Shown here: positions 31,597 to 40,010 of the stretch, piece after piece
Layout of the letters: each line of letters begins with the position of its first letter
Numbering within the stretch: position 1 is the first letter of the stretch
Origin: a virus
Strand: one strand, 5' to 3'
Length of the DNA: 64,000 nt
Virus record (IMG/VR): IMGVR_UViG_3300025508_000006
Span: 1 to 64,000 of that record
Notes under the pieces: model-generated
The model's database searches: none
Told to the model about the DNA's origin: nothing
What the model saw: the letters and a program-made list of their open reading frames with translations, nothing else
Position numbers and translations under genes: made by a program

Positions 31597-32137
31597 AGTA
31601 GCAACAATTGCCTTACATAATGTAGTAGAGTCGACACCCTTTGCTATCCGAATGATTAATGGTACTTTGTCTAAGAAGGACTACGTTCGCTATCTCAATG
31701 CCCAGTATGTAATCTTCAATGCTATGGAGCAGTACGGTGAATATATACTGCCTCATGCATCATTGCCTAGAAAGCAAGCAATCATTGACGACCTTGCTAG
31801 TTTAGGTGAGGAAGCAGATGGTTATAATATGCCTAAGTCTTCTTTCAACTATGCAGATTATATTCTTGGAGCATATGAAGTTGAGAAAACACTCCGCAAT
31901 TCACACATCTACTTGAACTACATGGGTATGATGTTCGGCGGTGGTATCGTAGCAAAGAATGGTTATTCTGATGGTAACTTATATAAGTTCGAAGGTGGTC
32001 GATCAGAAATCATTGCGGCGATTCGTGGACTAGAGTTGGATGTTGATGAAGTCAATCAAGGGTTTCGTTATCACATAGAGATATTCAAAGAGTTAGAAAA
32101 GATGGGTAAAGATGATAGGATGGGTAAAGATGATTAG
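31586..32137 (+). CDS. heme oxygenase-like protein
   Basis: The 183-residue all-helical protein matches the heme oxygenase layout. ALHNVVESTPFAIRM places His11 as candidate proximal heme ligand, and YVRYLNAQYVIFNAMEQYGE corresponds to the Y..L...Y.VY.AME helix. SHIYLNYMGMMFGGGIVAK (residues 106-124) matches H-x-Y-x-x-Y-L-G-x-x-x-G-G of the distal helix. The canonical distal Asp after the glycine is Met here. The predicted reaction opens heme to biliverdin, CO and Fe. The next gene is a bilin reductase, overlapping by 8 bases, which strongly supports the assignment. The C-terminus is a short tandem duplication (MGKDDRMGKDD). Confidence 0.75.
   Translation: MDIRVATIALHNVVESTPFAIRMINGTLSKKDYVRYLNAQYVIFNAMEQYGEYILPHASLPRKQAIIDDLASLGEEADGYNMPKSSFNYADYILGAYEVEKTLRNSHIYLNYMGMMFGGGIVAKNGYSDGNLYKFEGGRSEIIAAIRGLELDVDEVNQGFRYHIEIFKELEKMGKDDRMGKDD
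32101..32136 (+). repeat. 18-bp tandem duplication at the end of the heme oxygenase-like gene
   Basis: The 16-base string GATGGGTAAAGATGAT occurs twice with an 18-bp period, giving MGKDDRMGKDD. The second copy contains the start codon of the bilin reductase, so the duplication created or displaced the overlap. Confidence 0.8.
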
Positions 32138-32768
32138 TTTAGAAGATCGTCTAACCGAACTAACTGGTGAAATGCAAGAAATCATTGAAGCATCTGCTGG
32201 TGTTAAAGCATTAGAGACAGAGGAGTTTGGATGGGAGAACTATCGATACGAATCACCTAAGTTTAGACTAGCACACATAGAGCGATACTATGTTGATGGA
32301 CTGGTTGTTGCTCATGTTGTTGTGATACCACGTGAGACTATCGGTGCACCTATCTTTGGATTCGATGTTGTCGGTAGTGCTAAGACAGGTAGAATTACTG
32401 GTGCATTCGTTGATTGGTCACCCATAATGTGGGAAGGCAAGTGGCACAACACAGAGTGGAACAATGATCGAAAACTACCAGTCTGGGCAGAATGTTTTAG
32501 TAACCAGTTTGTTGCTATCAGACCAGACGAAGATGAGACAGATAAACTATTTGAGTTTGCTATAGATACTTTCACCGAGTATATGATGATGCTCCAAGAA
32601 TGTAAAGGCAGTAATAGTAAAGGTTGGGTAGATACAATCAAGATAGCACAGAATAAGTACTGTACACACCAAGCATCAAACCCACGCACACGTGCCGCAT
32701 TGAATAAGAAGATCGGCAAAGAACGTGCAGAGTATTTCATGACTGAGATACTTTTCCCCAAGATTTAG
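32130..32768 (+). CDS. pcyX: ferredoxin-dependent bilin reductase (PcyX/PcyA family)
   Basis: The ATG at 32130 gives 212 residues, a little shorter than PcyA (about 250). The N-terminal half has FRLAHIERYYVDGLVVAHVV, then APIFGFDVVGSAKTG and TGAFVDWSPIMWEGK. The Asp in FVDWSP (residue 95) aligns with the conserved catalytic Asp of bilin reductases. The C-terminal half has IKIAQNKYCTHQASNPRTRA, LNKKIGKERAEYF and MTEILFP, the family's closing block. It would reduce biliverdin from the preceding enzyme to phycoerythrobilin or a related bilin using ferredoxin. PcyX-type enzymes are known from marine phage contigs; distinguishing PcyX from PcyA or PebS needs a phylogeny. Confidence 0.8.
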   Translation: MISLEDRLTELTGEMQEIIEASAGVKALETEEFGWENYRYESPKFRLAHIERYYVDGLVVAHVVVIPRETIGAPIFGFDVVGSAKTGRITGAFVDWSPIMWEGKWHNTEWNNDRKLPVWAECFSNQFVAIRPDEDETDKLFEFAIDTFTEYMMMLQECKGSNSKGWVDTIKIAQNKYCTHQASNPRTRAALNKKIGKERAEYFMTEILFPKI

Positions 32769-37020: not shown

Positions 37021-38391
37021 TTACCAGGAATACTGTGAAGAGCGTATTCCAAAACTATTTGTAGGGTTCAATATATAATTACCAGCACCGCTACTAGAAG
37101 ATACATTATTCTGAGTTGTTGTCGGAGCATTAACATTACTCACATTAGTAATATTCACTGTAGCACCTTCACCTGCCGAAATTGATGATCTAGCAATTGC
37201 GCCACTCAGTTCTTCTCGATCTGTTGATTTACTTAATCTATCAGCAGTAATTTTCTTGTTGGCACTTACAATAGAATCTGATAGAGTTTCAGGAGTCAAC
37301 TCGGCAACAGTAGTTCTACTACCAGCACCTCTTGATTTTACTCTACTTCTACTTGAACTTACACTTGTCAAAACTTCTTCTTCGGAAGCAGACTCTACTT
37401 TAGGCGCACTACCTGATCCACCACTCATTACGTGATTCCACTCTTTCATGAATGCACTTGCAGGTGATTCACCACCGGGCATAATAGCACCTATAGCGGC
37501 AACTGCACCACGTGCGAATCCTTCGAGTACATTGAATATTGTATCTACAACAACTCCGAACGTATCAGAGAAAGAAAACGAGTCAAGCAACTTAGAGAAG
37601 TTTTCGAGTCCCATCTTTTTCATCAACCATGATACACCATCTTTAAGTAAGTCAAGAGGAATCAGAACTATGTTTGCAAGACCTTTCTGTATTCCCTTTG
37701 CTAGTCCTAGAAATTTATCAAATATATCAGCACCCTCACCAAGACTGGTCATCTCTTTAAAGACTGCCATTCCCACTTCGATTGCCGCAGTGAGTGGAAG
37801 AAATACTCTACCGAGTAATCTGAAGAACCCGAAGAACTTAGCGAATGTTGCACCGAATCCTTTAACGAATGTAACTATAGGTTGGAAGAATTTACCGATT
37901 GAAGAGAAGACTTTGCCTATAACACCTCCTTTACCAAAGAATGAACCGATGCGTCCAAAGAAATCTGTCATTGGTTTAAAGAATGTGCCTACTTTTGCTA
38001 CTGCTCTACCAATCGCGCCGTCGGCAGAGAAGATTGCTTTTAACTTATTACTCCATTTAAGAAACTTTGCGCCAATATCTAGTCTAAACATTTTCAGAAT
38101 TTTGTTTAAGGTTTCACCGAAACCAGTAACGAATCCTACAACTGCACCAGTAAGACCAGCAACAATGGCAGCAAACCCGAAGTTTAGTCCTTTAACATTT
38201 TCTTCTGGTTTTGATCCTTCGGCAGGCACAGCAGGAGCAGATTCGCCAATACGTTCGCGCATCATTTCCATCTCGTCCATCTTATTACTAAACCAAAGTG
38301 TAATAAAATTATCGAGTCTACGGTCAACACGACTAAGTGTTTCATTAGTCTGCATCTGTTCTAGTACTACGTCATCCAGTGTTAGCGCCAT
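37021..38391 (-). CDS. tape-measure-like tail protein (gp29 position)
   Basis: The 456-residue protein has a short coiled N-terminus (ETLSRVDRRLDNFITLWFSN), a long region of hydrophobic and amphipathic helices with repeated F-F-x-x-(I/F)-G-x-F-F units (GTFFKPMTDFFGRIGSFFGK and similar, about residues 130-200), and a polar C-terminus. The hydrophobic helical middle is typical of tape measure proteins. Its place directly after the gp26/frameshift ORF pair matches the chaperone-tape measure order of tailed phages. T4 gp29 has 590 residues, so this one is shorter. It ends next to the terminator at 36996. Confidence 0.68.
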   Translation of the reverse strand: MALTLDDVVLEQMQTNETLSRVDRRLDNFITLWFSNKMDEMEMMRERIGESAPAVPAEGSKPEENVKGLNFGFAAIVAGLTGAVVGFVTGFGETLNKILKMFRLDIGAKFLKWSNKLKAIFSADGAIGRAVAKVGTFFKPMTDFFGRIGSFFGKGGVIGKVFSSIGKFFQPIVTFVKGFGATFAKFFGFFRLLGRVFLPLTAAIEVGMAVFKEMTSLGEGADIFDKFLGLAKGIQKGLANIVLIPLDLLKDGVSWLMKKMGLENFSKLLDSFSFSDTFGVVVDTIFNVLEGFARGAVAAIGAIMPGGESPASAFMKEWNHVMSGGSGSAPKVESASEEEVLTSVSSSRSRVKSRGAGSRTTVAELTPETLSDSIVSANKKITADRLSKSTDREELSGAIARSSISAGEGATVNITNVSNVNAPTTTQNNVSSSSGAGNYILNPTNSFGIRSSQYSW

Positions 38392-38566
38392 TATTCTCTC
38401 TCTCTTGCTTCTCTTCTTCTAAAGTTTGCATTAACAGTATCATGTGTACCTCTCTCTCCCATGGCATCATAACCTCTAACTCTGTTAATGAATACTTATG
38501 ATACCTGGATAGCAAAAAATTAGTCTTAAAATGATTTGCTAGATTGTCGTGAGACAGGCATACTAG
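38372..38566 (-). CDS. frameshift-type second ORF between gp26 and the tape measure (tail assembly chaperone extension)
   Basis: Reading leftward from 38566 this frame encodes LVCLSHDNLANHFKTNFLLS, then RYHKYSLTELEVMMPWERE, MILLMQTLEEEKQ and a polar tail. It closes with a TGA at 38374-38372, overlapping the tape-measure start by 20 bases. The HKYSLxELExMxPWERE block is a recognisable motif of small proteins in this position in T4-like marine phages. No ATG or GTG precedes the conserved block (the first ATG falls inside it), and the frame is entered by a -1 slip in the last codons of gp26. I annotate it as the extension part of a gp26 fusion rather than as an independent gene. Confidence 0.6.
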   Translation of the reverse strand, partial: LVCLSHDNLANHFKTNFLLSRYHKYSLTELEVMMPWEREVHMILLMQTLEEEKQERENNGANTG

Positions 38567-39258
38567 AAAAAACTCTGCATTCCCTCCAGTACAACATTAT
38601 TATGTGTACCACATTTTTCGCAGTCAAACTTAACTTCATGTTTAACTGACGGCATATCTTTCAAATAAGTCGATATCTTTTCGAACTGCTGTTGAGTCAT
38701 CGTATCGATAAATCCATCGATACTATCCTTCGATTCATCTGCCATTACAATTCTTTCTTCTTGAGTAATAACAGTCTTCATACACTTACCAAGAACACTA
38801 AACCCTGCTTCTGCTTCATCTTCGGTGAAGTCAACCATAGCATAACTCGGATACATCATCTCTACTGAGATACTATCACTTAATTTTATGATGTTATTCT
38901 TCTTACCTACTTTACATTCAATCTCGCCAATATCAACTAACTGCTCATTGTCGTGATCACACTCTTCGCAAGCGATGTTTAATGTAACAACTTCGCCTAC
39001 AGACTTTGCTCTGATCTGAAGAAACATATATTCAATATCAAATGTTGTCAATTCATTTCGTTTGATAGCATTGCCGTCAAGACATGCCATGACTGTATCA
39101 AGTACTGCATTCATTATCTGACCTATGTCTTTCGATTCAGATGCTATCAGTAAAATCTTCTCTTCTTTAACTAAGTAAGGTCTAAACTTAACTTTCTTCT
39201 TCAACGATGGAACTGTCAACTCATATTTGGGTGTATCATTTAACGATGGTAATGCCAT
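38563..39258 (-). CDS. gp26: baseplate hub subunit gp26-like / tail assembly chaperone
   Basis: The 231-residue protein starts MALPSLNDTPKYELTVPSLK, followed by KKVKFRPYLVKEEKILLIAS. LTTFDIEYMFLQIRAKSVGE and CEECDHDNEQLV follow, and the C-terminus has FDCEKCGTHNNVVLEG. The FRPFLVKEEK...FDxEYxFxxxRxKSVGE pattern is that of the T4 gp26 baseplate hub family. Two CxxC pairs suggest zinc binding. It ends in MQSFF with a slippery run just before the TAG, joining the next ORF in the -1 frame. A GAGGAAA ribosome site precedes its ATG. Confidence 0.85.
   Translation of the reverse strand: MALPSLNDTPKYELTVPSLKKKVKFRPYLVKEEKILLIASESKDIGQIMNAVLDTVMACLDGNAIKRNELTTFDIEYMFLQIRAKSVGEVVTLNIACEECDHDNEQLVDIGEIECKVGKKNNIIKLSDSISVEMMYPSYAMVDFTEDEAEAGFSVLGKCMKTVITQEERIVMADESKDSIDGFIDTMTQQQFEKISTYLKDMPSVKHEVKFDCEKCGTHNNVVLEGMQSFF
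38566..38572 (-). other. slippery heptamer T-TTT-TTC for -1 frameshifting at the end of gp26
   Basis: In the gp26 frame the final codons on the minus strand are AGT TTT TTC TAG. The heptamer T TTT TTC (38572 to 38566) has the X-XXY-YYZ form. A -1 slip converts the stop into CTA GTA TGC and enters the 64-residue ORF in exactly the right frame. Confidence 0.6.
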
Positions 39259-39278: not shown

Positions 39279-40010
39279 TTAATTTAGTGCTTTGAATATC
39301 TTGTTTGTTACTTTACTTGCCGCATTTGTTGATGCCGCTCCAGTTCCTGTTATTCCTACCTTTCCTTTATCTGCCGGTTCTAAGTACTCACCCTGCCATG
39401 ATTTGTATGAAAACTCTACTGTGAACTGACTAATCTCATTCTGCGATGCATCTGTAAACGTCTCATACTGAATTGACTTGGGAAATGCACGATCAAGTAA
39501 CCAATGATAGTTTGCAAATCCACTTGTTCCTGCATCAACATCTATATCAAGATTAAGAGAAATAGGACCAAGATTAATATCTTTACTAACATTAAATAGT
39601 GGTGTAGTAAATCCCTTTTCTAGTTGATAGATGTGAACTTTCTGACAGTATGTATCTGCATAACCAGCAACGTATCTTCCTTCGCCCGCATCACCAACAC
39701 GTTTAATAATACTATCCATCCAACTCTCGAAGTATCGTCGTGTTCCCTGATCATTCATCACTCTGAATGTCATACTGACTTCTGGATTGTTAAACCCATA
39801 TGCTACTTGCTGTATATCAGCACCAATCTCTCGTGCAACTGTACTAATTTGTCTCGACGGAAGTGTAACACTTGTACACATGAAGGACATATCTCTTGGT
39901 GATTGATCTCCTATACGTGGTAAAAGAACGTGATACAGGTTGGGTCTTGCCGCACCTCCTTTACTGCCAAATACGCTTTTAAATTCGTCTACGCTACCAG
40001 GTCTAAACAT
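39279..40010 (-). CDS. gp54: baseplate/tail-tube protein, gp54-like (tube initiator)
   Basis: The 243-residue protein belongs to the T4 tail-tube fold family. It contains ARPNLYHVLLPRIGDQSPRD, then MSFMCTSVTLPSRQISTV and EVSMTFRVMNDQGTRRYFES, with FTVEFSYKSWQGEYL near the end. In T4, gp19 (163 residues), gp54 (320) and gp48 share this fold. Size and position among hub and baseplate genes favour gp54, which caps the baseplate and nucleates the tail tube; gp19 would normally be with the sheath gene elsewhere. Its start overlaps the stop of the preceding gene by one base. Confidence 0.7.
   Translation of the reverse strand: MFRPGSVDEFKSVFGSKGGAARPNLYHVLLPRIGDQSPRDMSFMCTSVTLPSRQISTVAREIGADIQQVAYGFNNPEVSMTFRVMNDQGTRRYFESWMDSIIKRVGDAGEGRYVAGYADTYCQKVHIYQLEKGFTTPLFNVSKDINLGPISLNLDIDVDAGTSGFANYHWLLDRAFPKSIQYETFTDASQNEISQFTVEFSYKSWQGEYLEPADKGKVGITGTGAASTNAASKVTNKIFKALN

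Follow-up and report, generated by a model that had tools for sequence, protein, structure and literature searches.

The gp26 gene of an uncultured marine T4-like phage and the open reading frame (ORF) that follows it in the −1 frame very probably encode a tail assembly chaperone, made in a short form and in a predicted frameshifted form. The phage is represented by a 116-kb IMG/VR virus record, of which we analysed a stretch of 64,000 nt (hereafter, the window). A first-pass annotation, made from the letters alone, had read the locus as a chaperone of the G/GT type, and this reading is supported by a conserved slippery heptamer, coding selection in the −1 frame, missing start codons, gene position, the modelled N-terminal fold and the fusion of the equivalent parts in T4 gp51. 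At the level of sequence, the strongest evidence for frameshifting is the selection acting on the −1 frame directly 3′ of the heptamer, together with the missing start codons.

A slippery heptamer at the end of gp26

The window gp26 (Table 1) matches the T4_baseplate family PF12322 over residues 9–231 (E = 3.5e-58; 197 bits against a cutoff of 24.5), so that the Pfam gathering score, our measure of family membership, is exceeded across the whole domain, and it also matches phrog_150 (E = 6e-56). Its 3′ end reads CTG GAG GGA ATG CAG AGT TTT TTC TAG: an in-frame heptamer of the X XXY YYZ type stands directly 5′ of the 0-frame stop and is accompanied by an open −1 frame, the configuration by which we define a −1 programmed site. 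From position 38566, the −1 frame bypasses this stop and runs to its own at 38372–38374, beginning with LVCLSHDN and containing HKYSLTELEVMMPWERE, and the predicted frameshift product is 295 aa long. The heptamer and its coordinates (38566–38572), the 64-residue ORF with its conserved block, the lack of an ATG or GTG 5′ of that block (the sole start-like codon there is a TTG at codon 18) and the overlap with the start of the putative tape measure gene (20 nt within 37021–38391) had all been described correctly in the first-pass annotation. To these we add the identity of the ORF, which had gone unrecognised: its match to phrog_634, 'baseplate hub assembly catalyst' (E = 7e-21), marks it as gp51.

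Genes for a tail-tube-like protein and gp2 lie upstream of gp26, and a 456-aa ORF lies downstream. We regard the latter as a putative tape measure gene on the grounds of position and size; its family matches are weak, and it is without similarity to the HTVC008M tape measure.

Table 1 Features of the gp26 locus in the window, with the evidence for each
Feature	Coordinates	Strand	Evidence
Putative tape measure protein, 456 aa	37021..38391	−	Position and size; overlapped by the −1 ORF by 20 nt
−1 frame extension, 64 aa + stop; gp51-like, T-like domain	38372..38566	−	phrog_634 (E = 7e-21); pN/pS
Conserved block HKYSLTELEVMMPWERE	38450..38500	−	Collinear with YSLNSISKMIPAER of T4 gp51
gp26 homologue, 231 aa + stop; proposed short tail assembly chaperone (TAC-N, G-like)	38563..39258	−	PF12322; phrog_150; AlphaFold model
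0-frame stop TAG directly 3′ of the heptamer	38563..38565	−	Sequence
Slippery heptamer T TTT TTC	38566..38572	−	Sequence; T TTT TTN in 87 of 90 nonredundant relatives
GGAGG, Shine–Dalgarno-like, 10 nt 5′ of the heptamer; possible stimulator	38583..38587	−	Sequence
Tail-tube-like protein, just upstream of gp26	39279..40010	−	phrog_45 tail tube (E = 6e-27)

The expectation by chance of a heptamer paired with an extension was estimated within the window. There, T TTT TTN occurs in frame at 6 of 18,667 codon positions, and gp26 is alone among the 61 long ORFs kept in both closing on a poly-T heptamer and continuing in the −1 frame for at least 40 codons. The sole other long-ORF case in the window (32112–32768, + strand) has TTTCCCC at its end and a 41-codon open −1 frame. 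This ORF is a homologue of ferredoxin oxidoreductase, a host-metabolism gene (phrog_7278, E = 4e-20); the sequence 3′ of its TTTCCCC is without a recognisable match, and we treat it as probably a chance occurrence.

Conservation of the heptamer among relatives

Relatives were drawn from IMG/VR and from GenBank phages and, once redundancy was removed, comprised 90 gp26 loci spanning four or more lineages. The slippery run proved to be conserved: in 87 of the 90, T TTT TTN stands in frame at the 3′ end of gp26 (seventh base C in 49, T in 36, A in one and G in one), separated from the stop by 0, 1 or 2 codons. Carriers include KVP40, Aeromonas 65, Asswx_1, phages of Rhizobium (T TTT TTG), Agrobacterium and Stenotrophomonas, cyanophages and HTVC008M. 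The codon preceding the heptamer's two codons always ends in T, though the residue may be Ser, Asp, Asn, Gly or Ala; codon usage would predict a T-final codon in 44 of the 87 loci, and the naive log10 P is −26, a value that exaggerates the significance because the loci are related and thus not independent.

Three loci depart from this pattern: L010, Pseudomonas Cygsa01 and Vibrio D531. G TTT TTT TAG replaces T TTT TTN in L010 (3688–3700), where the −1 frame stays conserved; this G TTT TTT is similar to GTTTTT, a motif reported in the chaperones of Vandenendeviridae. In Cygsa01 (L088:3001–3911) and D531 (L090:2938–3900), gp26 is without the run, and an ATG in frame with the gp51 part overlaps or adjoins the gp26 stop. 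Relatives with a proper start codon and no slippery site had been singled out in the first-pass annotation as speaking against frameshifting; these two distant phages are of that kind, and the other relatives are not.

The position before a larger gene is also general: in 81 of the 83 loci examined, the end of the −1 frame has the start of an ORF of at least 80 aa close by, no more than 60 nt before it or 20 nt beyond it, and the ORF following that frame in relatives is mostly 440–790 aa long. In HTVC008M (L001:3403–3735), Rhizobium I1_9 (L085:3869–4294) and Agrobacterium OLIVR5 (L087:3814–4179), gp51 is separated from the large tape-measure-like gene by a small ORF (110–141 aa).

Coding selection and start codons in the −1 frame

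Selection was assessed by pairwise pN/pS over the first 19 codons 3′ of the slip site, an ungapped segment, in 41 loci of the window lineage. The ratio was 0.22 in the −1 frame, compared with 1.24 and 2.24 in the other two frames, which contain stops in all 41 loci; this is a sign of strong purifying selection confined to the −1 frame. Conserved residues (LSHD...NHF.KTNF) extend from three codons 3′ of the heptamer onward, and the first 17 codons of the −1 segment hold no ATG, GTG or TTG in 26 of the 40 heptamer-bearing loci of this lineage. Because start codons are absent from these loci and conservation begins so near the heptamer, a separately initiated gp51 would lose conserved sequence.

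Candidate stimulatory elements

Pairing with the anti-Shine–Dalgarno (anti-SD) sequence 5′ of the slip site is stronger than at random gene-body sites in all groups. Relative to synonymous resampling, the excess is clear in P-SSM2-like/cyanophage-like loci (−8.8 versus −5.7 kcal/mol) and slight in the window lineage (−5.9 versus −5.2 kcal/mol), and none was seen in the freshwater group; the anti-SD signal is partly explained by conservation of the Leu-Glu-Gly sequence. On the 3′ side, a stable 11-bp stem begins 5 nt from the heptamer in P-SSM2-like phages (93% of cells paired, with one compensatory change only), and S-PM2 has, likewise a few nt away, a stable 14-bp stem that differs from it. 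No consensus RNA structure was found 3′ of the heptamer in the window lineage, and the window's own structure there is weak. A 13–14 bp helix around the slip site, obtained by single-sequence folding, was rejected as no better than shuffles (z = −0.3).

Equivalence with T4 gp26 and gp51

T4 gp51 (249 aa) comprises a whole gp26-like domain (PF12322, residues 1–201, E = 4e-52) followed by the same C-terminal block in one frame, and matches phrog_634 as well (E = 1e-23). The predicted frameshift fusions, with T4 left out, were made into a profile whose alignment to T4 gp51 runs unbroken over the junction (E = 1e-11), and comparison of the N-domain of T4-type gp51 with gp26 by hhalign gave 98% (E = 9e-14). 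The heptamer is absent from T4 gene 26 (GAG TTC TTT GAG); with the gp26-like domain and the C-terminal block fused in gp51, T4 therefore has one gene for the short form and another, divergent from it, for the long form. KVP40, Aeromonas 65 and Asswx_1, which belong with T4 to the Straboviridae, have the frameshift form.

The wide distribution of frameshifting suggests that it is ancestral; the family tree, in which both T4 branches are long, does not date the T4 duplication or show which arrangement came first. We also considered T4 gp28 (L084:8349–8882) as a third gp26 paralog and rejected it, the profile comparison being not significant. T4 gp26 weakly matches the gp28 family (phrog_1140, E = 9e-4), and the end of gp28 has a similar '..KGL..IMELF' motif.

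A broader scheme would recognise three interchangeable arrangements. Frameshifting would be the ancestral and most widespread of them; T4 would exemplify the second, with paralogous genes for a short and for a fused long protein; and in the third, seen in phages such as Cygsa01 and D531, the C-terminal part would be made as a protein apart, from an ATG of its own, and never as a fusion. We hold this scheme to be doubtful, though with an appreciable chance of being right; if it is true, the third arrangement would imply that covalent fusion, a hallmark of G/GT chaperones, is dispensable.

Predicted fold of gp26

The confident AlphaFold2 model of the window gp26 (pLDDT 86.6) suggests a chaperone-like fold for the N-terminal domain, through a modest match. 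Among solved structures, residues 1–87 of the model have HK97 gp13 (2OB9) as their top match (Z = 7.2, rmsd 3.6, 84 of 107 residues), the second match of the model is YqbN (3KLU; Z = 6.4) and the next, unrelated, match has Z = 2.9; scores of the size of the first two can by themselves be chance. Both HK97 gp13 and YqbN have been named as tail assembly chaperones (PMC9603447). Beyond this domain, the window gp26 has further, CxxC-containing parts. For the T4-type gp51 model, no tail assembly chaperone was listed among the structural matches, and the gp26 and gp51 profiles gave no meaningful matches to solved-structure sequences.

Alternative explanations and the favoured reading

One alternative is that ribosomes terminate at the end of gp26 and reinitiate at a start near or after its stop, which would make gp51 a separate, unfused small protein. 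It is annotated in this way in the GenBank records of S-PM2, P-SSM2 and KVP40, there are cyanophage loci with an in-frame ATG shortly 3′ of the stop, and Cygsa01 and D531 have such an ATG and no heptamer. However, reinitiation leaves the kept T TTT TTN unexplained, the segment is protein-conserved even in the 26 of 40 window-lineage loci that have no start codon in it, and both parts are fused in T4 gp51; we therefore think a separate gp51 decidedly unlikely. Slippage of the polymerase on the T run, giving mixed mRNAs, would produce the long form at transcription instead. Relatives ending in TTT TTT TAG do have runs of 8 T, but the window and cyanophage-like loci have only 6 T and then C, and the seventh base may be T, C, A or G where the six before it are preserved, the pattern of tandem tRNA slippage; the strong Shine–Dalgarno-like and hairpin elements of cyanophages likewise point to the ribosome, which leaves transcriptional slippage very improbable. 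The homopolymer run at the junction might also raise the suspicion of a sequencing error or a decayed gene, the chance of which is negligible: the same site is present in further contigs with an identical gp26 protein (L003 and L004) and in the 87 of 90 diverse relatives, and this conservation already refutes the suspicion.

There is also the reading under which gp26 is annotated in hundreds of records, namely as a structural hub protein, with a role for the −1 ORF that is unrelated to tape measure chaperoning. Older T4 genetics offers a counterpoint to the chaperone reading, in that a T4 review cites genetic data placing gp26 in the hub; the same review counts gp26 and gp51 among the hub assembly chaperones and reports that gp51 is absent from the particle (PMC3004832). 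That absence argues against a structural role, as does the chaperone-like fold of the gp26 model. Moreover, no solved chain matches T4 gp51, or T4 gp26 beyond 13-residue zinc-finger matches, whereas gp27 is present in 7 entries, including 5IV5. A structural hub role for gp26 thus seems unlikely.

On the reading that we hold to be very probable, gp26 and the −1 ORF form a frameshifted chaperone. Most ribosomes would stop at TAG and yield the 231-aa short form, and a minority would slip back one base, with the tRNAs reading TTT TTC doing so on T TTT TTC, and yield the 295-aa long form with its gp51 domain. In the manner of lambda G/GT, numerous short-form molecules would cover the tape measure protein, and the task of the long form would be to bring in the tube protein before departing from the particle.

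Comparison with known systems

The layout proposed for the window locus resembles that of lambda G/GT and its relatives, reportedly treated by Xu, Hendrix and Duda in 2004, in which a short chaperone and a longer −1 frameshift product are encoded immediately ahead of the tape measure gene; the window gp26 differs from lambda G/T in its extra CxxC-containing parts, and the two are likened by arrangement. P2 E/E+E′, where Christie et al. are said to have described frameshifting on T TTT TTG in 2002, likewise has a poly-T slippery heptamer in a contractile-tailed phage, and the protein families differ. The chaperone locus of Pakpunavirus/Andersonviridae has a conserved poly-T (GTTTTT) at the end of TAC-N and an open −1 frame (PMC12846349), a poly-T and −1 layout similar to that of the window, in another lineage and with another motif. 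In Bacillus phage 0305phi8-36, orfs 143/144 were proposed, from secondary structure and paralogy, to be a two-gene chaperone form replacing frameshifting (PMC2147016). This pair is like T4 gp26 plus gp51, in a phage that is not T4-like.

For T4-like phages themselves, tail assembly chaperones were reportedly identified by Vladimirov, Gautam and Davidson (Virology 2022, 566:9–15). Later papers report from that study poly-T slippery sequences in T4-like TAC-N genes (PMC12846349) and, in some T4-like phages, the pairing of a short gene with a long, fused one (PMC10885494); on these accounts, the first-pass annotation was behind the literature in remarking that this arrangement is not usually described for T4 gp26. 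From our T4 comparisons and the title of the 2022 paper, we infer that its short and long genes are gp26 and gp51. The TAC-N/TAC-NC proteins of T4-like phages, with their reported poly-T sites, would then be of the same protein family as the window gp26/gp51, and the window lineage differs from the two-paralog phages in having a single gp26 and a gp51 part in the −1 frame. The predicted chaperone frameshift in the window is thus not new in kind, since T4-like chaperones and poly-T sites had, as cited, already been identified. New here are this uncultured lineage, the quantified conservation, the cyanophage stimulatory elements and two phages that apparently use neither arrangement.

G–T frameshifting was described in a 2016 review as conserved in long-tailed phages 'except T4' (PMC5009743), and cyanophage gp51 was found in a 2010 comparison to have only ~20% of the usual length (PMC3037559). 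A frameshifted chaperone would explain why gp51 of cyanophages and vibriophages appears ~200 residues shorter than that of T4, which the 2010 comparison noted without explanation. Our results support renaming 'baseplate hub subunit gp26' and 'hub assembly catalyst gp51' as one frameshifted chaperone, a change that would affect hundreds of marine phage records, and the T4-like phages would offer a clear case of a recoding site and a gene duplication serving the same purpose within one phage group.
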